Positions 3,689 through 14,409 of a stretch of DNA of 21,364 nt are shown here, one piece after another. Below the pieces are notes generated by a model, which saw only the letters and a program-made list of their open reading frames with translations, made no database searches and was not told the DNA's origin. The stretch is from a virus. Location of the stretch: positions 1 to 21,364 of the IMG/VR virus record IMGVR_UViG_3300021959_000488. One strand, given 5' to 3'. The translations under genes were made by a program, and so were the position numbers. Positions within the stretch are counted from its first letter, which is position 1. Each line of letters opens with the position of its first letter.

Positions 3689-3869
3689 AACTAGAGAGCA
3701 GATTGAAAAGGTTGTTATGACCCTCTTAAAGTTGGAAGAGTGGACTGCTGATGAGGAAGCTGAATATGAGGCGCTGCTTTCGGAGTATCCAATGGAAAAC
3801 TCCGAAGACATGCTGGTCATAGCTAGTTTTGACGAGGCGGCTGGGCTAGTTACCAGAGACTTAAGATAG
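3681..3869 (+). CDS. Small acidic helical protein overlapping the MuF-peptidase gene
   Basis: This 62-aa protein starts at GTG 3681, overlapping the MuF stop by 8 nt. GGAGG at 3670-3674 stands 6 nt before it, which makes this start far better than the in-frame ATG at 3648, whose use would need a 41-nt overlap and has no such site. The protein is rich in Glu and predicted to be largely helical (DRTREQIEKVVMTLLKL, then DEEAEYEALLSEYP). It has no signal peptide, membrane segment or cysteine. I do not recognise the family. Its coupling to the MuF-metallopeptidase gene makes an inhibitor, immunity or chaperone partner possible, but this is inference from position only. Its stop converges with the minus-strand gene at 3861, overlapping by 9 nt. 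Confidence 0.7.
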   Translation: MDRTREQIEKVVMTLLKLEEWTADEEAEYEALLSEYPMENSEDMLVIASFDEAAGLVTRDLR

Positions 3870-4094
3870 CTCTTCAGTAATAGCGTCACAAATAGCGTTG
3901 TCATCTTCCGGTGTAATCTTGGCCTCAAGCCATTTTGCGGGGTAGCCTTTTCGGTCGTAAACGGTGTACTCGCACTCAACATAACCGTGGTAATCAAGAT
4001 CGCTTGTTTCGTTATAGCGAAAAGTCCCTTTCACGGCAGCAAAGTAATCAACCTCAACCAGACACGGAATCCCTTGTATTCTGCACTCAATCAT
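3861..4094 (-). CDS. Small phage protein of unknown function (minus-strand island, gene 5)
   Basis: This 77-aa protein begins at the ATG at 4094. The reverse-strand GGAGG (4104-4108) lies 9 nt upstream, which favours this start over an in-frame TTG at 4112. The first part, MIECRIQGIPCLVEVDYF, and the later YTVYDRKGYPAKWLEAKIT read like a compact beta-rich domain of a kind I have seen among uncharacterised phage proteins. The C-terminus is acidic (EDDNAICDAITEELS). The start overlaps the end of the preceding island gene by 8 nt, so the two are translationally coupled. The stop overlaps the convergent plus-strand gene. The function is unknown. It could regulate early or accessory functions, since it is antisense to the late operon. 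Confidence 0.75.
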   Translation of the reverse strand: MIECRIQGIPCLVEVDYFAAVKGTFRYNETSDLDYHGYVECEYTVYDRKGYPAKWLEAKITPEDDNAICDAITEELS

Positions 4095-4305
4095 TTCTGT
4101 GAGCCTCCACAACTATCTCTTTTGGGGTTACAACGTTATCGGTAACGCTGTAGCTGCGACAGAGAACAACTCCGCGCCAAGCGGGAAAATCGTTAGGAAA
4201 CGCTAGATTTTTGCAAACTCGAACAAACTCTTTGTTTGCTCCTGTAAACGTTTTGTGGGTGGTGACTCTTTTGTCTCCATCGTACCCAATTAATACGGTG
4301 TACAT
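4087..4305 (-). CDS. Hypothetical small protein (minus-strand island, gene 4)
   Basis: This 72-aa protein starts at the ATG at 4305 with AGGAG about 8 nt upstream on the reverse strand. The N-terminus (MYTVLIGYDGDKRVTTHKTF) and the alternation of hydrophobic and charged residues suggest a small alpha/beta or beta fold. There are two cysteines (in RVCKNL and VVLCRSY), no membrane segment and no motif I recognise. It sits between genes 3 and 5 of the island with an 11-nt gap upstream and an 8-nt overlap downstream, which fits a single transcript. Confidence 0.7.
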   Translation of the reverse strand: MYTVLIGYDGDKRVTTHKTFTGANKEFVRVCKNLAFPNDFPAWRGVVLCRSYSVTDNVVTPKEIVVEAHRND

Positions 4306-4316
4306 ATAACTTTCTC

Positions 4317-4829
4317 CTATGATTGTTTGGCGTTAAGGCCGGTTTTTAAGTTGTAAATATCTGATTGTTGCGGGGTCATAACGCATCTTTCATTGAAAAC
4401 GTACACGGGGAATTCTTCTTCCCAGCAAAACAGGTGGTATTGATTGCAGGTGTCCACTACGCGGCTTTCCGCTGGATACATTTCTACAGCCTCCCACTCG
4501 GGGCCAAGAATGCTAGTTTTTATTTTTTGAATCACTCGCCAATCATGAAAACGCTCTTTGTCATGCCGCTTAATACTTAGATAAGTCGGGGTTTTGTCGC
4601 CAAATCCGTGTTCATGACCCATAAGGACTCGCTTGGCAACTTGAAACGTAGGAGAAAGCCAATACTCGGTATCCTTCTCCTCTAGGTGTAGTTGTTTAGC
4701 GGCTTGTTTCCTGACCTCCTTGGGGCTTTCTGGGGACGCTGCTGTGATTCGCTTTAGCCACTCGGTAAAACTTACGGCGGGCGCTGACCCTTTTTCAAAA
4801 ACAAAGTCCGAATCTTGGTATGTGTCCAT
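4317..4829 (-). CDS. Conserved phage protein of unknown function (DUF7694-like; minus-strand island, gene 3)
   Basis: The 170-aa protein starts at the ATG at 4829, one base into the TAA of the preceding gene (a TAATG junction on the reverse strand). GGAG at 4839-4842 is 9 nt upstream. The in-frame TTG at 4844 is less likely. The middle and C-terminal part contains DWRVIQKIK, then GPEWEAVEMYPAESR, VDTCNQYHLF and NERCVM. That series is the signature of a small domain widespread in phages and prophages, which I believe is called DUF7694, though I could not confirm the accession. The N-terminal ~90 residues are separate, with a short helical EVRKQAAKQLHLEEKD stretch. The function is unknown. It is the longest and most recognisable gene of the island. 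Confidence 0.8.
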   Translation of the reverse strand: MDTYQDSDFVFEKGSAPAVSFTEWLKRITAASPESPKEVRKQAAKQLHLEEKDTEYWLSPTFQVAKRVLMGHEHGFGDKTPTYLSIKRHDKERFHDWRVIQKIKTSILGPEWEAVEMYPAESRVVDTCNQYHLFCWEEEFPVYVFNERCVMTPQQSDIYNLKTGLNAKQS

Positions 4830-5032
4830 TATATTTGGCTCCAACTGGAAGATAAAACTTTCACGGCACTTTCAAAATCCCAAGGACGGTTAGGACACAT
4901 AATTTCCTCTCGCTGTTTTTCGCCTCTATTTAACCGATAGCATTCTGGAGAGCAAAACCGTGTTGACCTGTGAGCAAGCTCGGGTAGTTCGTTGGTGCAG
5001 CTATTACGAAGGCAGACATTAGCGCCAGACAT
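4829..5032 (-). CDS. Small Cys-rich putative zinc-binding protein (minus-strand island, gene 2)
   Basis: This 67-aa protein starts at the ATG at 5032 with AGAGG about 8 nt upstream on the reverse strand. Cys7, Cys12, Cys27 and Cys31 are arranged as C-x4-C-x14-C-x3-C, and the FCSPECYR motif is like the second half of a treble-clef or FCS-type zinc knuckle. A fifth Cys is at 46. Such small zinc proteins often bind nucleic acid or protein, but no specific role can be read here. The stop shares bases with the start of the next gene. Confidence 0.75.
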   Translation of the reverse strand: MSGANVCLRNSCTNELPELAHRSTRFCSPECYRLNRGEKQREEIMCPNRPWDFESAVKVLSSSWSQI

Positions 5033-5074
5033 ATTTTTAACCTCTTTTGATGCGCCCCGTGGAGCGCTTGGTTG

Positions 5075-5311
5075 TTATTGCGTGGCATATACTGCTTTTT
5101 TGACTGAGGCGCGTACACCCTCCCAGCCGGTCTGAGCAATCCTAACTGCCGTGGCAGCTTGGGCGCGAGTAGCCTTTACACCGAACTCATCAGCAGCAAA
5201 CTCAGCCGCCTCTGTAAAAGCTCGCTTCCAACAGCAAGCAAACTCGTATGAAGTCAAAGCCGCCTCTGCCATTTGCTGAATTTCCCACTCTGATAAATAT
5301 GCTTTTTTCAT
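5075..5311 (-). CDS. Hypothetical helical protein (first gene of the minus-strand island)
   Basis: This 78-aa, Ala-rich protein starts at the ATG at 5311, with a weak AGAGA (5321-5325) 9 nt upstream on the reverse strand. It is predicted to be almost entirely alpha-helical (EWEIQQMAEAALTSYEFA, then FTEAAEFAADEFG and RAQAATAVRIAQTGWEGV). Two adjacent Cys residues lie in FACCWKR. There is no signal peptide or membrane segment, and I do not recognise the family. As the promoter-proximal gene of the island, it would be the first expressed from the leftward promoter in the 5312-5530 region. Confidence 0.7.
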   Translation of the reverse strand: MKKAYLSEWEIQQMAEAALTSYEFACCWKRAFTEAAEFAADEFGVKATRAQAATAVRIAQTGWEGVRASVKKAVYATQ

Positions 5312-5346
5312 AAGGCTTAATCTCTTTTGTCTCTAAACAGGTTGTA

Positions 5347-5374
5347 ATAATAACCTAACCCGAGATAATAGCAA
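5347..5374 (-). promoter_or_regulatory. Possible leftward sigma70-like promoter for the minus-strand island
   Basis: On the reverse strand, a -35-like TTGCTA (5369-5374) is followed after 16 bp by a -10-like TATTAT (5347-5352), 36 bp before the ATG at 5311. The match is moderate. It is supported mainly by the location upstream of the first island gene and by the AT-rich surroundings. Confidence 0.4.
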
Positions 5375-5406
5375 CCCATATTGTGCATTTATTTGATTAT
5401 TTTTGT

Positions 5407-5434
5407 TTAACAATGTTTTTCTTTGAGATATGAT
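5407..5434 (+). promoter_or_regulatory. Rightward sigma70-like promoter before the protease-capsid genes
   Basis: TTAACA (5407-5412, 5 of 6 with TTGACA) and TATGAT (5429-5434, 5 of 6 with TATAAT) are separated by 16 bp. Transcription would begin near 5441 and run into the prohead protease gene at 5531, leaving a leader of about 90 nt. Because the minus-strand island interrupts the late operon, a new rightward promoter here makes sense for supplying capsid protein. Confidence 0.6.
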
Positions 5435-5460
5435 GTGATAAATCTTTGTAGGATCAGTTG

Positions 5461-5472
5461 ATTCCTAGGAAT
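5461..5472. promoter_or_regulatory. 12-bp perfect palindrome, operator-like
   Basis: ATTCCTAGGAAT is a perfect 12-bp palindrome centred about 25 bp downstream of the predicted start of the rightward transcript. It is too short for a stable RNA hairpin, but symmetric sites at this position often bind dimeric regulators. No second copy was noticed in the intergenic region. Confidence 0.35.
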
Positions 5473-5530
5473 ACTCTGTTTTCAGAAGAGAGCAGAACAA
5501 AATTCGTTAAAGATCGTATGGAAGAGAGCT

Positions 5531-9622: not shown

Positions 9623-10059
9623 TTAAGAACAGGCAGCAGTTTCTAAACAGGTTAAGGGTAAGGCTGGGCGATCTTCCAGTTAAAAACTCAAAGGCGGCGA
9701 TGTTCAAGGCGGTCAATCTTGTTAAAAATGAAGCCCAGCAGAGCATTATGCGCGGCTCTAAAACTGGCGAAACTGTAAAAAAATACAATCCATCAAGAAC
9801 GCATACGCAGTCAGCGGCAGGACAGCCACCAGCAAGCGATACAGGCTTTCTAGTGTCCAATATAACCACGGATATTCAGTCGGAAGGGGTTGGTGCAGGG
9901 GCTCAAGTAGTAGGCTCTGTTATATCCTCAGCGCCTTACAGCAAGGCTTTGGAGTATGGGACGGTAAATATGCCGGCGCGTCCTTTTATGGGGCCGGCTT
10001 TGAAAAAGAATGCAGGAAAAATCAGGGTCATCTTTGTTAAGCAAGGGTTGATATCATGA
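9619..10059 (+). CDS. HK97 gp10-like head-tail / tail completion protein
   Basis: The 146-aa product starts at GTG 9619, overlapping the preceding stop by 4 nt, with GGAAGG upstream. It carries the signatures of the HK97 gp10 family: an N-terminal helix (KAAMFKAVNLVKNEAQQSI), a central STGxL-like segment (ASDTGFLVSNITTDI) and the C-terminal YSKALEYGT with ARPFMGPALKKN. Members act at the head-tail interface or tail terminus, and it is normally encoded next to the stopper and terminator genes, as here. It is slightly longer than usual. Confidence 0.87.
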   Translation: MIKNRQQFLNRLRVRLGDLPVKNSKAAMFKAVNLVKNEAQQSIMRGSKTGETVKKYNPSRTHTQSAAGQPPASDTGFLVSNITTDIQSEGVGAGAQVVGSVISSAPYSKALEYGTVNMPARPFMGPALKKNAGKIRVIFVKQGLIS

Positions 10060-10463
10060 GCGTAGGCCAGTTTGAGCTTCAAAAGACCATATATTCCGCA
10101 CTAAGCAGCGATAACACCTTAACGTCTACATTGGGGGCTTCTGTTCATGACGAGGTTCCTCAAGGTACAGCGTATCCTTTCGTTCAGATAGGGGAAGATA
10201 CGGCTGTAGACTACAGCACTAAAGATGAAACTGGTGCCGAAACTACAGTAGTTATGCACGTTTGGAGCAGGGTCGCTGGCTCGGCGCAGGCAAAAAACAT
10301 TATGGACAGAGTGCATACTTTGTTGCATGATAGCAATCTTACCGTCACTGGTTTTAATCTCGTTAATATGAGAATGGAGTTTAGTGATTTAATAAGGGAT
10401 CCAGACGGACTCACAAGACACGGCATCATGAGGTTTCGTGCAGTTATTTTAGGTACTTCTTAA
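10056..10463 (+). CDS. Tail terminator / tail completion protein (DUF3168-like)
   Basis: This 135-aa protein starts in an ATGA overlap with the previous gene. The sequence LQKTIYSALSSD, SVHDEVPQGTAYPFVQIGED and the later VMHVWSR and HTLLHDSNLTV are typical of DUF3168, which includes tail terminators that cap the tube. The final LIRDPDGLTRHGIMRFRA is also typical. It comes just before the tail tube genes, the usual position. Confidence 0.88.
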   Translation: MSVGQFELQKTIYSALSSDNTLTSTLGASVHDEVPQGTAYPFVQIGEDTAVDYSTKDETGAETTVVMHVWSRVAGSAQAKNIMDRVHTLLHDSNLTVTGFNLVNMRMEFSDLIRDPDGLTRHGIMRFRAVILGTS

Positions 10464-10475
10464 CGGAGATATAAT

Positions 10476-10883
10476 ATGGCGGCACAAAAAGGCAAGGCTG
10501 TCCTAATCAAATTGGATCAAAGCGGCAGCCAGACTACTATAGGTGGTTTGCGAAGCTCATCTATCACCCTCAACGACGAGATGGTGGATGTAACAAATAA
10601 GGATACCGTGGGCAACAGCAGGGCGCTTCTTCCTCAAGGCGGGAATACTAGCGTAACTATTGCGGGGTCAGGTATTTTTACTGGGGTAAATACTGAAACT
10701 ACTTTAGAGACCTATTTTGCATCTGGCACCTTGAAGGCATATAGCTTCATTATTCCAGATTTCGGCACTTACGCCGGAAGTTTTCTTATTACTAACTTAG
10801 AGTATGGCGGCGAGTATAACGGAGAGGTTACCTACAGTGTAACCTTTGAGTCCTCGGGCGCGGTAACGTTTACTAACGCTTAA
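10476..10883 (+). CDS. Major tail tube protein, TP901-1 family (copy 1)
   Basis: This 135-aa protein is of the TP901-1 major tail protein family (beta-sandwich tube subunit that stacks as hexameric rings). It has the family features MAAQKGKAVLIKL, TIGGLRSSSITLNDEMVDVT and the C-terminal YAGSFLITNLEYGGEYNGEV with a TFESSG end. GGAG lies upstream. It is 14 nt from a close paralogue (10898-11299); by hand alignment I count about 78 identical positions of ~133. One copy probably builds the tube. The role of the other is open. Confidence 0.9.
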   Translation: MAAQKGKAVLIKLDQSGSQTTIGGLRSSSITLNDEMVDVTNKDTVGNSRALLPQGGNTSVTIAGSGIFTGVNTETTLETYFASGTLKAYSFIIPDFGTYAGSFLITNLEYGGEYNGEVTYSVTFESSGAVTFTNA

Positions 10884-10897
10884 TAGGAGAATAGATT

Positions 10898-11299
10898 ATG
10901 GCGGCTCAAAAAGGTAAAAGCTTACTCCTTAAGATAAATACCACAGGCTCCACCTATGTGACTATAGGCGGTCTCAGGTCTACCTCTGTATCCTTGAACG
11001 ATGAGATGGTAGATATCACCAACAAAGACAGCTCTAACGTTCGGGAAATATTAGCTGGTGCGGGCGTGAACTCTATCACTATTAGCGGCAGCGGCGTGTT
11101 CACTGATTCGGCGGCAGAAACGACTATAAAGGATAAAATGGGATCGGCAACTTTCTCAAATTATCAGCTAATTATTCCGGGTCACGGCACTTACGCCGGA
11201 GCTTTTCAGCTCACCAGTCTTGAGTATGCGGGCGAGTACAACGGGGAAGCTACTTACAGCTTAACGCTAGAATCTAGCGAAGCAGTAACATTCTCATAA
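10898..11299 (+). CDS. Major tail tube protein, TP901-1 family (copy 2)
   Basis: This 133-aa protein is a clear paralogue of the gene at 10476 (about 55-60% identity by hand, with the same ends: MAAQKGK, TIGGLRSTSVSLNDEMVDIT and AGAFQLTSLEYAGEYNGEA). It differs in the loop after NKD (one residue shorter) and in the central segment. AGGAG lies upstream. Either both form the tube, or one is a specialised subunit at the tube's end. The intact frames and conserved cores argue that both are in use. Confidence 0.88.
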   Translation: MAAQKGKSLLLKINTTGSTYVTIGGLRSTSVSLNDEMVDITNKDSSNVREILAGAGVNSITISGSGVFTDSAAETTIKDKMGSATFSNYQLIIPGHGTYAGAFQLTSLEYAGEYNGEATYSLTLESSEAVTFS

Positions 11300-11308
11300 G
11301 GAGCTATC

Positions 11309-11554
11309 ATGGCTTGGATTCAGGTAAATATTAGCCACGGCAAGATAGAAAGAGACGGAATGATGAAAGGCTCTCAGATTGTTGTGGGCCAAGACTTCTC
11401 TAAAGCGAAAACCATAAAAGTAAACGGTAAGCCTTTTGAGGTTGAAAGTTGCGAGATGGATGCCAGAGAAGAAAATTGGGTAATAGAGCTTTCAAACGAA
11501 AGCGTACAGGAGCAGTCAGATGACGAACCCGTTGAAGGGGGAGATGCTAGTTAG
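11309..11554 (+). CDS. Small protein of unknown function between tail tube and chaperone genes
   Basis: This 81-aa protein is acidic at the end (QEQSDDEPVEGGDAS) and has a small beta-like core (GQDFSKAKTIKVNGKPFEVESCEM). A GGAG precedes the ATG. Its last 35 nt overlap the chaperone gene, which starts in another frame with AGGAG inside this gene. The family is not identified. The position suggests a tail assembly or tube-associated role. Confidence 0.75.
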   Translation: MAWIQVNISHGKIERDGMMKGSQIVVGQDFSKAKTIKVNGKPFEVESCEMDAREENWVIELSNESVQEQSDDEPVEGGDAS

Positions 11555-11867
11555 TCTTGGCAAAGAAGAACATTCTTGCAGGCTTACAGTAGATTCTCTT
11601 ATAAAAATAGAAACAGCCTTGGATAAAGGCATTCTCCAGATTACGCAGAGATTATCTGACGGTGATGTTCGCATCAACGATCTCTCTGTAATTCTTTTCC
11701 ACGCCTTACGGGGCGGCGGCAATAATGTCTCCGACAAAGATGTAAAGCAAATCATACAAAAGTCGGGCATTGTTCCTTGTTGTAGCGCAGTCGCGCAATT
11801 ATTAGTTTCCACTCTTAGCGATCCGGAGGCGGAAAGCGAAGAAAAAAAGCAGGAGAGGGAGAGCTAG
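11520..11867 (+). CDS. Tail assembly chaperone, short form (GTA gp10-like)
   Basis: This 115-aa protein starts at the ATG at 11520, with AGGAG (11508-11512) 7 nt upstream. It resembles the GTA-gp10 / phage TAC_11 family: PLKGEMLVSLG, then LTVDSLIKIETALDKGILQI, DLSVILFHALRG and VSDKDVKQIIQKSGI. The C-terminus is a charged tail (EAESEEKKQERES). In siphophages this protein (lambda gpG equivalent) coats the tape measure during tube assembly and has a frameshifted longer form (gpGT). The sequence at 11843-11849 and the overlapping ORF that follows fit this, so the 115-aa product is the short form. Confidence 0.88.
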   Translation: MTNPLKGEMLVSLGKEEHSCRLTVDSLIKIETALDKGILQITQRLSDGDVRINDLSVILFHALRGGGNNVSDKDVKQIIQKSGIVPCCSAVAQLLVSTLSDPEAESEEKKQERES

Positions 11868-11892
11868 AACCTATTCAATGGAGGAGGTTCTA
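11825..11892 (+). promoter_or_regulatory. Programmed -1 frameshift cassette: SD-like site, slippery heptamer, downstream hairpin
   Basis: Three elements occur in order: GGAGG at 11825-11829 (Shine-Dalgarno-like, 13 nt upstream), the heptamer A AAA AAG at 11843-11849 in the correct phase, and an 8-bp inverted repeat TAGAACCT (11865-11872) / AGGTTCTA (11885-11892) with a 12-nt loop. A AAA AAG is the heptamer used by Escherichia coli dnaX, which also relies on an upstream Shine-Dalgarno-like element and a downstream stem. The hairpin here starts 15 nt after the heptamer, longer than usual, so its role is less certain. Confidence 0.8.
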
Positions 11893-12061
11893 CGAGGTTT
11901 GCGTGGGGATGGCTGGCATACAGCCCTCTGAGTTTTGGCAAATGTCTCCTGTAGAAATCTACTCCGTACTTACTGGATTTCAGGAGTTTAACGGAGGCTC
12001 AAAAGATCAGCCGATGAGCAGGTCTGAGCTAGACGAACTAATGGAGTTGAATCCAGACTAA
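11849..12061 (+). CDS. C-terminal part of the tail assembly chaperone, made by -1 frameshift (GTA gp10.1 / TAC_6-like)
   Basis: An open frame in -1 relative to the 11520 gene runs from the slippery site to TAA at 12059-12061. After AAA AAG it would continue AGEGELEPIQWRRFYEVC. The segment from QWRRFYEV through GIQPSEFWQMSPVEI to MSRSELDELMELNPD matches the small tail chaperone that follows gp10 in GTAs (TAC_6-like: W, then LGLSP-FW-MTP-E). Its conserved part begins before the only ATG (11909), so independent initiation there would remove the W and following helix; a GTG at 11903 is also possible but cuts the same region. A frameshift fusion is the better explanation. The stop overlaps the tape measure ATG by one base. 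Confidence 0.8.
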   Translation, partial: AGEGELEPIQWRRFYEVCVGMAGIQPSEFWQMSPVEIYSVLTGFQEFNGGSKDQPMSRSELDELMELNPD

Positions 12062-14409
12062 TGGCTACCGTAGAAGAACTTTTAATCCAAATCAAAGCCG
12101 ACACTAAAGGCCTTAAAACAGAGCTTGGTAGAGTCAAGCAAAGCCTTAATAGTAGTTTAGACCCTAAGCCTGTTAATAGGCTTGGAGCCTCCCTTAGAGG
12201 CTTGGCCGCTCCCTTGGCTGGAATAATAGCTGGACTTAGCGGAGTCGCGGCTGTAAGAGGTATAGCAAGAATAGGGTCAGAGTTTGAAGACTTAAAAGAT
12301 TCATTAAACACTGTTTTTGGGTCTATTAAAGCTGGAGATAGGGCTTTATCTCAAATCATAGAATTTGCCCAAACGACACCATTTCAAGTTGAAGATGTAA
12401 CAAAAGCTTTTATCTCGCTGAAATCGGCGGGCATAGAGCCAACTAAGGACATGCTTCAAACCTTTGCAGATACAGCCTCTGTATCAATAGACCAGCTAGG
12501 TATTTTTGAGGCGCTTGTAAGGATCACTCAAAGATCCGCATCAGGGGGGTTGGGTCTTGAAGAGCTTAATCAAATTATGGATCGCGGCGTTGATGTCCTT
12601 GGGATACTCAAAAGAGAGCTTTCTTTATCAAAAGACGAAATAGCAAAATTCGGCGCAACAGCAGACGGCGCAAGAATTATAATGAGCGCGTTGACAAAAG
12701 GGCTGAATGAGCAATTTGGGGGCGCAATGGCCTCCAAGATGGACAACTTATCAACAAAAGCAACCAACACAGAGATAGCATTTAAAGGATTGGCGGACGC
12801 TATATTTACTGGGGGCTTGGGCAATATGCTCAAAGATATGGCTGATTATTTTGCGCGGATAGCGGCATCTGCCAGCACTATAGTAGCGTCAGTAAGCTCG
12901 GGGGCGTCAATTAATACAGTGCAGATAGCTGGTCAAGGTGATCCTACTGAGACTCTAACCGCTTCTGTGGGCGACATGAGAGAAGCCATTCAAAACGAAT
13001 TACGCATGGATGTGCTTTTCAATGAGGCTCTAGCCCGTGGCGATAAAAGCATGGCTTCAACATATAGAAGCAGGCGAGAGGGTTTCCAAAAAGATTTAAC
13101 CGATCTTAGTGATTTTTTAGAAAAATCAGGTGTTGCGGCAGCAAGAATAGATGACGTTTTCTCCAAGATGGCGCGAGAAGAGCTTGAATTATTGTCAGTA
13201 GGCGAGGGAGATATCGCGGAAGCATTTGATAACTTTGTTCTTGGCGATGTTTTAGACAACGAGAAGGTTCGCAACTTTATAGCTGGCAGGCTCGCATTCA
13301 TTACCGCTGAAATAGAGAAGCAAACTGAGGCAATCCCTACCGTCGCTACCGGTGATGGAGACAGCAAAACGGGGACAACTACAACAGGCCCAAGTGCTGA
13401 GTTAATAGCCGCAAGAAAAACTGTTTCTGATTTAATCAAAGACACTATTACTCCAGCTCAAGAGCTTGCCTCTGCATATGACGCTTTGAAATTAGCCGAG
13501 GAATCTTTAGGTGATGGCTCCGAAATAACAGCAGAACAAATTGCATCAGTTAGAGATATGCTTGCCGGTATAGCGAGTGATATATCGGCAGGAGAGTTGG
13601 AAGAAAGCTTCGGCTCTCTTCAGTCTGTGATTGACGGAACCGTTACACCCTTAGAAACTTTAAATGCTCAGCTTAAGAAGCTCCAAGAAATAGCCGATTC
13701 AGGCGATGCGGAAGTTAAAAAGTTTATATTTGGCACCGATGACTCGCAAGAAATCGAAGAGTCGTTGAGTAGAGTCACTAGCGAAATAAAAGAGTTACAG
13801 GATAAAGGCGCAGATGCTGCTGAAACGTTCGCGCAAACAATGGCACCCGCAATAGCGCAGTTATCGCACACCTTTACAAATGATTTTGTTAACTCTTTGC
13901 TGTCAGGTAAAGATGCGCTTGAATCGTTCAAGAGCTTTGCCAAAAATATCGTTTCTCAAATTATAGCTACGTTCTTGCAGATGGCCGTTGTCAACCAGAT
14001 ACTTAACGCAGTCTTCTCATCTATCCCCGGCTTTCAGGCTCAACCAACAATGGGCTTTGGTGGGGGCGGTGGTGGCGGCGGTGTTGGCGGCGTGGGGATG
14101 GCTGGTGGGGCGGCCTCCGGCGGCGCAATGATCAGAGGAAGACCGTACTTGGTTGGCGAGCGTGGCCCAGAGATGTTCATTCCTCACACAGCCGGCACGT
14201 TAAAAAATGGTAATGACACCAAAAGCATGATGTCAGGTGGCGATACTTTCGTAGTAAATCAGAGCTTAAATTTCTCGACGGGCGTAGTCCCAACGGTAAG
14301 GGCTGAGATTCAAAAAATGTTGCCTCAAATCAGTGATGTCACCAAAACGGCAGTGCTTGAGTCTACAAGACGAGGCGGGACATACAGAAAAGGATTATTA
14401 GGTGCCTAA
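12061..14409 (+). CDS. Tail tape measure protein
   Basis: This 782-aa protein sets tail length and is later ejected with the DNA. The N-terminal part is helical (ELLIQIKADTKGLKTELGRV), followed by a hydrophobic segment around 49-70, and a conserved block including FEDLKDSLNTVFGS, FAQTTPFQVEDVTKAFISLKS and NQIMDRGVDVLG. The middle is a long helical region. A hydrophobic segment occurs near 630-655, then a Gly-rich stretch (~666-690) and YLVGERGPEMF (Y696 onward), the typical tape measure end motif. At the accepted figure of roughly 0.15 nm per residue, the tail would be near 115-120 nm. The start lies in a TAATG overlap, so it is coupled to the frameshift gene; GGAG 14 nt upstream is far. Confidence 0.95.
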   Translation: MATVEELLIQIKADTKGLKTELGRVKQSLNSSLDPKPVNRLGASLRGLAAPLAGIIAGLSGVAAVRGIARIGSEFEDLKDSLNTVFGSIKAGDRALSQIIEFAQTTPFQVEDVTKAFISLKSAGIEPTKDMLQTFADTASVSIDQLGIFEALVRITQRSASGGLGLEELNQIMDRGVDVLGILKRELSLSKDEIAKFGATADGARIIMSALTKGLNEQFGGAMASKMDNLSTKATNTEIAFKGLADAIFTGGLGNMLKDMADYFARIAASASTIVASVSSGASINTVQIAGQGDPTETLTASVGDMREAIQNELRMDVLFNEALARGDKSMASTYRSRREGFQKDLTDLSDFLEKSGVAAARIDDVFSKMAREELELLSVGEGDIAEAFDNFVLGDVLDNEKVRNFIAGRLAFITAEIEKQTEAIPTVATGDGDSKTGTTTTGPSAELIAARKTVSDLIKDTITPAQELASAYDALKLAEESLGDGSEITAEQIASVRDMLAGIASDISAGELEESFGSLQSVIDGTVTPLETLNAQLKKLQEIADSGDAEVKKFIFGTDDSQEIEESLSRVTSEIKELQDKGADAAETFAQTMAPAIAQLSHTFTNDFVNSLLSGKDALESFKSFAKNIVSQIIATFLQMAVVNQILNAVFSSIPGFQAQPTMGFGGGGGGGGVGGVGMAGGAASGGAMIRGRPYLVGERGPEMFIPHTAGTLKNGNDTKSMMSGGDTFVVNQSLNFSTGVVPTVRAEIQKMLPQISDVTKTAVLESTRRGGTYRKGLLGA

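Follow-up and report, generated by a model that had tools for sequence, protein, structure and literature searches.

Two diverged tail tube genes side by side in a siphophage-type viral record, candidate subunits of one tail

Results

Gene order at the locus

The window, that is, the whole stretch of DNA analyzed here, is a 21,364-base viral record with a siphophage-type head-tail module. After the capsid region, genes for a head-tail adaptor, a head closure protein, a neck or tail completion protein and a tail terminator are followed by two adjacent genes for tail tube proteins, denoted copy A and copy B, and then, 3' of copy B, by genes for an 81-aa protein, a GTA-gp10-type chaperone and the tape measure protein:

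10056–10463, plus strand: tail terminator (PF11367 Tail_completion_gp17, phrog_176), directly 5' of the pair
10465–10468, plus strand: GGAG, Shine-Dalgarno-like sequence 5' of copy A
10476–10883, plus strand: tail tube copy A, 135 aa, PF06199, grouping with a tube type that occurs singly in other phages (with the LLP signature and without the PEVF loop)
10885–10889, plus strand: AGGAG, Shine-Dalgarno-like sequence in the 14-nt spacer between A and B
10898–11299, plus strand: tail tube copy B, 133 aa, PF06199, grouping with another singly occurring tube type
11309–11554, plus strand: 81-aa protein in the interval between the tube genes and the chaperone, without a family match above the cut-off
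11520–11867, plus strand: tail assembly chaperone, PF11836 (GTA-gp10)
12061–14409, plus strand: tape measure protein, 782 aa, PF20155 (TMP_3)

The 14-nt spacing runs from the stop codon of A (10881–10883) to the ATG of B at 10898, and each copy has a separate ATG with its own Shine-Dalgarno-like sequence. Among the matches listed, the tube genes of the relatives likewise lie between the terminator and the chaperone. The 81-aa protein yielded no Pfam match above the cut-off and, at E 0.1, none in PHROG; ORFs resembling it occupy the same place in some close relatives. At the 3' end of the chaperone gene (within 11520–12061), an in-register A AAA AAG heptamer is found at 11843–11849, after which the −1 frame stays open until 12061 and overlaps the start of the tape measure gene, an arrangement that we take to resemble the programmed frameshift of the lambda G/GT type. 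Elsewhere in the window, a 175-aa ORF on the minus strand (4317–4844), protein-like by eye, lies within the head-gene module, which is otherwise on the plus strand; the surrounding stretch, 3689–5530, contains no plus-strand ORF of at least 90 aa.

Both copies are predicted tail tube proteins

Copies A and B are identical at 78 of 134 positions (58%; BLASTP E 1e-52). Both match PF06199 (Phage_tail_2) over positions 1–132 of 132, with 115.6 bits for A and 126.1 bits for B at a cut-off of 23.8 bits, and both match PHROG 1407, ‘major tail protein’. An earlier note, made from the sequence alone, had described two adjacent tail tube paralogs here, 55–60% identical, and its positions proved exact, and it was also right on the identity and on the intactness of the frames. 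Between A and B, synonymous differences approach saturation (pS 0.78), so the pair is not a recent repeat.

The AlphaFold2 models, which are of middling confidence (mean pLDDT of 81.4 for A and 80.2 for B), show the tube topology, a beta sandwich with one helix and a long β2–β3 loop. The best PDB match of both models is 6tba, with a TM score of 0.62–0.68 to the chains from the gene transfer agent RcGTA and 41–42% identity, and a profile of 57 relatives matched the RcGTA tail tube protein Rcc01691 with E 1.2e-42. By PF06199 and by the models, each copy is a single tube domain with no added domain. Thus, A and B are predicted tail tube proteins of the PF06199 family with complete domains. The 31 columns that are invariant in the 57-row alignment are by definition kept in A and B; among 21 nearly invariant positions, read by eye, A departs from the family at 3 (44, 67 and 70) and B at 1 (128).

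Divergence between the copies of the window is spread unevenly along the domain. Identity is 7/8 over residues 1–8, 2/7 in strand 1 and 2/3 in the next turn, 11/16 in strand 2, 11/23 in the long β2–β3 loop, 7/11 in strand 3, 6/18 in the helix region, 3/7 in strand 4 and 1/3 in the turn that follows it, 13/18 in strand 5, 9/12 in strand 6, and 5/9 at the C-terminus. The proposal that the copies keep conserved ends and differ in central loops accordingly holds only approximately. Residues that differ between A and B in all three distinct lineage-1 genomes include V39I, G55A, I67V, L86F, S90Q and V118A (written from A to B). In RcGTA, rings are formed via strands 2 and 5.2, and ring stacking involves mostly the β2–β3 loop and, to a small extent, the N-terminus (PMC8718954); the corresponding ring and stack parts (residues 1–8, strand 2, the long loop and strand 5) diverge unevenly between A and B.

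Pairs occur in two lineages among mostly single-copy relatives

Loci were recruited from a viral collection and from genome contigs with pair-carrying queries, with no more than the 80 best kept in each scan, and merged into 266 distinct loci, 251 viral and 15 bacterial. Among the matches listed, an adjacent pair is present in 15 of the 251 viral loci and one gene in 236, proportions that are biased by the pair-carrying queries and do not amount to a population frequency; every bacterial locus (15/15) has one tube gene. Within this sample of listed matches, the gene is indeed usually single, as the earlier note had it. When the viral loci are restricted to those flanked on each side by more than 600 bases, pairs account for 11 of 207 (again among the matches listed). 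The counted tube genes of the 251 viral loci all encode 132–148 aa, and a tblastn search with ten tube proteins (one locus per viral group) detected no further tube-like stretch outside the counted genes in any of the 251.

In all 15 pair loci, the two genes are adjacent, on the same strand, 9–14 nt apart, full length and separate. Decay of the second copy in relatives, a possibility raised in the earlier note, was sought and not found: among the matches listed, no pair locus has a shortened copy and no viral locus a tube-like remnant. An assembly artefact is ruled out by the presence of the pair in 15 distinct viral loci together with the near-saturated silent sites between the copies.

Thirty of the records behind the loci, linear, 7 to 54 kb long and possibly fragments, were searched whole for PF06199: 28 contain one copy and 2 contain two, the latter being the records of loci L007 and L047, where the copies form the adjacent pair. 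In the named phage collection, 13 records match A and 13 match B, at one place each. No adjacent PF06199 pair was found in the 14 genomes behind the bacterial loci (that of L157 excluded), some of which have more than one match. The genome of the planctomycete Zavarzinella formosa (locus L162, G036) has six PF06199 matches, one of them below the cut-off and two inside frames of more than 500 aa.

The pairs fall into two lineages. Lineage 1 consists of the window with L003, L004 with L005, L006, L007 and L008, and comprises three distinct genomes; lineage 2 consists of L047, L054, L057, L066, L232, L302, L304, L305, L307 and L513 (10 genomes), and its two copies are 76–78% identical to each other where measured (L047 and L057). 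The tape measure proteins of pair phages are 746–859 aa long (8 measured), and those of single-copy phages have a median of 656 aa (175 measured), 35 of the 175 being at least 746 aa and 1 at least 841 aa. An association of the pair with long tails was set aside as evidence, given that only two lineages carry the pair and that the tape measure of the single-copy locus L149 is 800 aa long.

Both copies are under purifying selection

In close pairs of genomes, both copies evolve under purifying selection. Between L007 and L008, A has no amino acid change at a dS of 0.095 and B has an omega of 0.075; between L054 and L066, omega is 0.09 for A and 0.068 for B; and between L004 and L006, where changes are few, it is 0.129 for A and 0.305 for B. 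The values for the window and L004 (0.078 for A and 0.118 for B) come at a dS above 2 and so are indicative only. Protein identity between the window and L004 is 78.9% for A and 66.2% for B, and that between the window and L007 is 71.6% for A and 66.2% for B; in lineage 2, the rates of divergence of the two copies are similar. The earlier remark that both copies keep intact frames thus stands, with full-length genes in every pair locus and constraint on both.

In the best trees, the two copies group with different single-copy tubes

The phylogenetic trees of the tube proteins were built from only 137 columns. In a tree of 115 rows (kept from 156, with same-contig loci and identical proteins left out), the lineage-1 A copies belong to a 41-row clade (100/99) together with single-copy tubes, and the lineage-1 B copies fall in the remaining 74 rows, alongside other single-copy tubes. 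In a 75-row tree (bacterial loci L165–L170 and near-identical rows left out), the A copies of lineage 1 form one group (95/81) within an 11-row clade (100/98) that includes single-copy tubes, and those of B group together (86/95) within a different, 15-row clade (94/96). The branching order (L007,(window,L004)) is the same in the A and B groups, the inner fork of the B group being weak (95/55).

Holding the lineage-1 copies together worsens the log-likelihood by 22–31 units. Forcing lineage-1 A and B into one clade gives AU p values of 0.213 and 0.0748 in two tree sets, and forcing the window's own A and B to be sisters gives 0.0854; for lineage 2, both copies as one clade give 0.158. None of these groupings is rejected. 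A single clade of all pair genes of both lineages is rejected (AU p 0.0106; bacterial rows and L252 were left out of the test that yielded 0.0748, 0.0106 and 0.158). This rejection argues against one duplication behind all pairs and is still compatible with a single origin by combining two genes; the case for two origins comes from the 75-row tube tree and the tree of flanking genes, where the pair label needs 3 changes.

Two short signatures follow a similar division, although as imperfect markers. The LLP signature is present in 5/5 lineage-1 A copies, none of which has the PEVF loop (0/5), and the PEVF loop is present in 4/5 lineage-1 B copies, the window's own B being the one that lacks it. 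Among the 236 single-copy genes, PEVF alone is found in 107, LLP alone in 33, both in 2 and neither in 94.

On the tree of eight flanking genes (112 of 144 loci, the 32 omitted lacking the flanking genes; computed with a ‘quick’ method and with long branches flagged), the tube type, whether A, B or pair, needs 11 changes, so that phages seem to exchange their tube genes, with frequent replacement. In this tree, the window, L005 and L006 are sister to a group of the pair-carrying L007 and the single-copy L149 and L120 (SH-aLRT 99). The lineage-1 pair may have been gained once and then lost or replaced in some phages, or gained more than once, and both histories fit. The nearest flank relative of L007 is the single-copy L149; the pair is therefore dispensable over evolution.

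That the nearest relatives of A and B differ points to two pre-existing genes having been combined, or else to a very old duplication followed by many losses. A local duplication is disfavored by the trees but not rejected by the AU tests for lineage 1; the ‘clear tandem duplication’ of the earlier note is, by the same evidence, doubtful.

Matching residues in the two copies of lineage 2

Columns 8, 32, 36 and 61 (in copy A numbering) are variable in both copies of lineage 2, and at all four, the copies match within the genome in 10/10 genomes. The four columns were first named from nine genomes; the tenth, L513, was found later and matches at all of them. Homologous column pairs split the genomes alike in 5 of 22 cases, and non-homologous ones in 15 of 462. 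With re-pairing of columns as the control for relatedness, a match as extreme was obtained in 6 of 20,000 shuffles and, with near-copies removed, in 68 of 20,000 (six representatives) and 48 of 20,000 (five representatives). The lineage-2 matches exceed what relatedness accounts for.

Gene conversion as the source of these matches is rejected, because the silent sites are not matched and the serine codons at column 61 differ. At the matching residues, silent identity stands at 0.415 for copies of one genome and at 0.394 for copies of different genomes (six representatives), and the serine codon families at column 61 can differ between the copies of one genome, for example, AGC and TCG in L047. 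In the models, columns 8, 32 and 36 lie in or beside the elements that form rings or stacks, and column 61 lies in strand 3. On the simplest reading, the two copies would contact common partners within one tube, and each copy may be a partner of the other.

In lineage 1, where three distinct genomes give little power, this signal was looked for and not found: 231 within-genome matches were counted against a permutation mean of 228.7, and 9 of 32 columns gave the same split, the mean of the shuffles being 7.75, with matching letters at one column, 131. Nor did the two lineages show a signal when pooled, with 2 of 60 columns and a mean of 1.18 in the shuffles.

Discussion

A proposed tube built from two tail tube types

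We propose, with confidence that is evenly balanced, that both genes encode working tube subunits of one and the same siphophage tail, and that the pair came from combining two tube types and has been kept long-term. A phage with one tube type would have acquired, next to its own tube gene, one of another type; the two-gene cassette would thereafter have been inherited as a unit; and both proteins would co-assemble into one heterotypic tube, by alternation within rings, in separate segments, or with one copy supplying an end ring. For lineage 2, we infer co-assembly, and likewise the order of events, from the matched residues; for the window's phage, co-assembly is suggested by the protein family, by the constraint on both copies and by analogy with lineage 2. 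Consistent with co-assembly, the frames are intact, the tube domains are complete, both copies are constrained and the pair is kept in several genomes, and consistent with a combination of types, the best trees give each copy a different set of single-copy tubes as its closest relatives. Several observations pull the other way: the covariation is confined to lineage 2 and is absent from the three distinct genomes of the window's lineage; the matched residues could stem from a shared partner or shared conditions without direct contact; copy A is off the family at 3/21 nearly invariant positions, as is copy B at 1/21; and the AU values for lineage 1 leave room for local duplication. The mixed tube listed among the options in the earlier note is thus favored by the covariation in lineage 2, which is not seen in the window's own lineage, and the decorated tube, another of its options, is disfavored, neither copy having an extra domain in Pfam or in the models. 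A more specific version, in which the tube of a non-contractile tail is a regular co-polymer of two different hexamer-forming proteins, one from each of two phage lineages, whose contact residues are kept matched between the genes, and has arisen at least twice independently, we advance tentatively and consider doubtful.

One copy might instead build the tube and the other only one special ring at the tail end, either at the joint between tube and terminator or at the joint to the distal tail protein. The stopper, terminator and distal tail protein of RcGTA are, in the available parts of the reports, separate proteins that share the tube fold, the Mu tube initiator gp43 is described there as a separate tube-like protein at the tail end, and B varies more than A between lineage-1 genomes, as a copy with fewer neighbors might. 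We nonetheless find such a division of labor fairly unlikely, considering that a terminator gene is already present in the window and that the lineage-2 copies diverge at similar rates; that the RcGTA distal tail protein and Mu gp43 carry an added domain and A and B do not is a weak objection, since the RcGTA stopper and terminator, as far as the accessible descriptions go, lack a large added domain. An old local tandem duplication followed by divergence, with the kinship to other phages' tubes being an artefact of short sequences, appears unlikely on the whole: the adjacency of the copies on one strand, the AU values for lineage 1, for the window alone and for lineage 2, and the 137 columns all speak for it, but keeping the lineage-1 copies together is costly in likelihood and the signatures, imperfect as they are, divide A from B in all but the window's B.

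The pair could also be a gene swap caught in transit, a snapshot before the loss of one copy, with the second having no distinct job. The frequent changes of tube type on the flank tree agree with this, as does the position of the single-copy L149 and L120 inside a clade of pair carriers. Nevertheless, the pair is kept in two lineages, with every copy full length and no remnants in the viral loci listed, and, if lineage 1 had one origin, the pair outlived the split between the window and L007, whose flanking proteins are 40–68% identical, with both copies intact; we therefore rate a mere passing state as quite unlikely. Finally, a second tube version could keep tails assembling, or escape tail-tube sensing, under attack by host defense. 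The defense protein DSR2 recognizes the phage tail tube (PMC10981675, in its available part), and the DSR2-bound phage protein 8ygo is a weak match in the fold searches of both A and B. However, that match is poor (TM about 0.3), and two tubes would present a sensor with more targets, not fewer, which makes this role highly improbable.

Implications and comparison with known systems

Siphophage tails, in the accessible parts of the literature, have been described as having a tube made up of a single repeating protein, with or without a frameshifted longer form of it. If two distinct proteins share a tube, the choice of genes can set ring composition and end identity, and such tails offer a system in which to learn how a helical lattice accommodates a second subunit. 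If this is true, annotation that assigns a genome a single ‘major tail protein’ overlooks half of the tube. The pairs, together with the scatter of tube types over the flank tree, suggest that tail tube genes move between phages.

Afp5/Pvc5-type proteins are, we presume, to be grouped with Mu gp43 as tube initiators. As described in the available text on Mu, gp43 forms an additional tube-like hexamer located at one tube end and has an added, helix-rich domain; the window differs in that the tube domains of both copies are plain and their genes precede the tape measure gene, and neither A nor B is a tube initiator of this type, since no added baseplate-binding domain is found in either. In T5, going by the accessible part of the description, the tube domain is duplicated within one protein, pb6, which forms trimers with two tube domains per repeat unit. 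A fused double tube of this kind is not what the window encodes, with the stop codon of A ahead of the new ATG of B, and the genes are separate in all 15 pair loci.

The closest precedent for two tube proteins is that of Bacillus phage SPP1, where, according to the portions of the reports available, gp17.1 and gp17.1* co-assemble in one siphophage tail at about 3:1. Both come from one gene by a +1 frameshift and have the whole tube domain in common, the longer form adding an FN3 domain; the window, unlike SPP1, has two genes and two different tube domains with no added domain, and the separate ATGs, the Shine-Dalgarno-like sites and the 58% identity show that the pair is not a frameshifted one. 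The same literature offers in SPP1 a parallel for the frameshift candidate at the end of the chaperone gene (11843–11849).

The best match in both profile and fold is RcGTA Rcc01691 (PDB 6TBA and 6TSV, a five-ring tube), a protein of the same family and of similar length (137 aa), and the GTA-gp10-family chaperone near the tube genes of the window is another RcGTA-like feature. The rings of the RcGTA tube are made of one protein in the accessible account, whereas the window has two tube genes; the tube of the marine roseophage R4C is likewise reported, in the part of that account available, to consist of one protein. In a literature of mostly open papers, covered in part, we found no account of two adjacent, separately encoded siphophage tail tube paralogs, and no second tube gene in the accessible literature on ChaoS9 and phiCbK. 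As far as these sources go, none of RcGTA, R4C, SPP1, T5 and Mu carries a pair of adjacent tube genes that are separate, diverged and plain. What is new here is probably a PF06199 tube with a second, putatively co-assembled tube protein whose gene groups elsewhere in the family.
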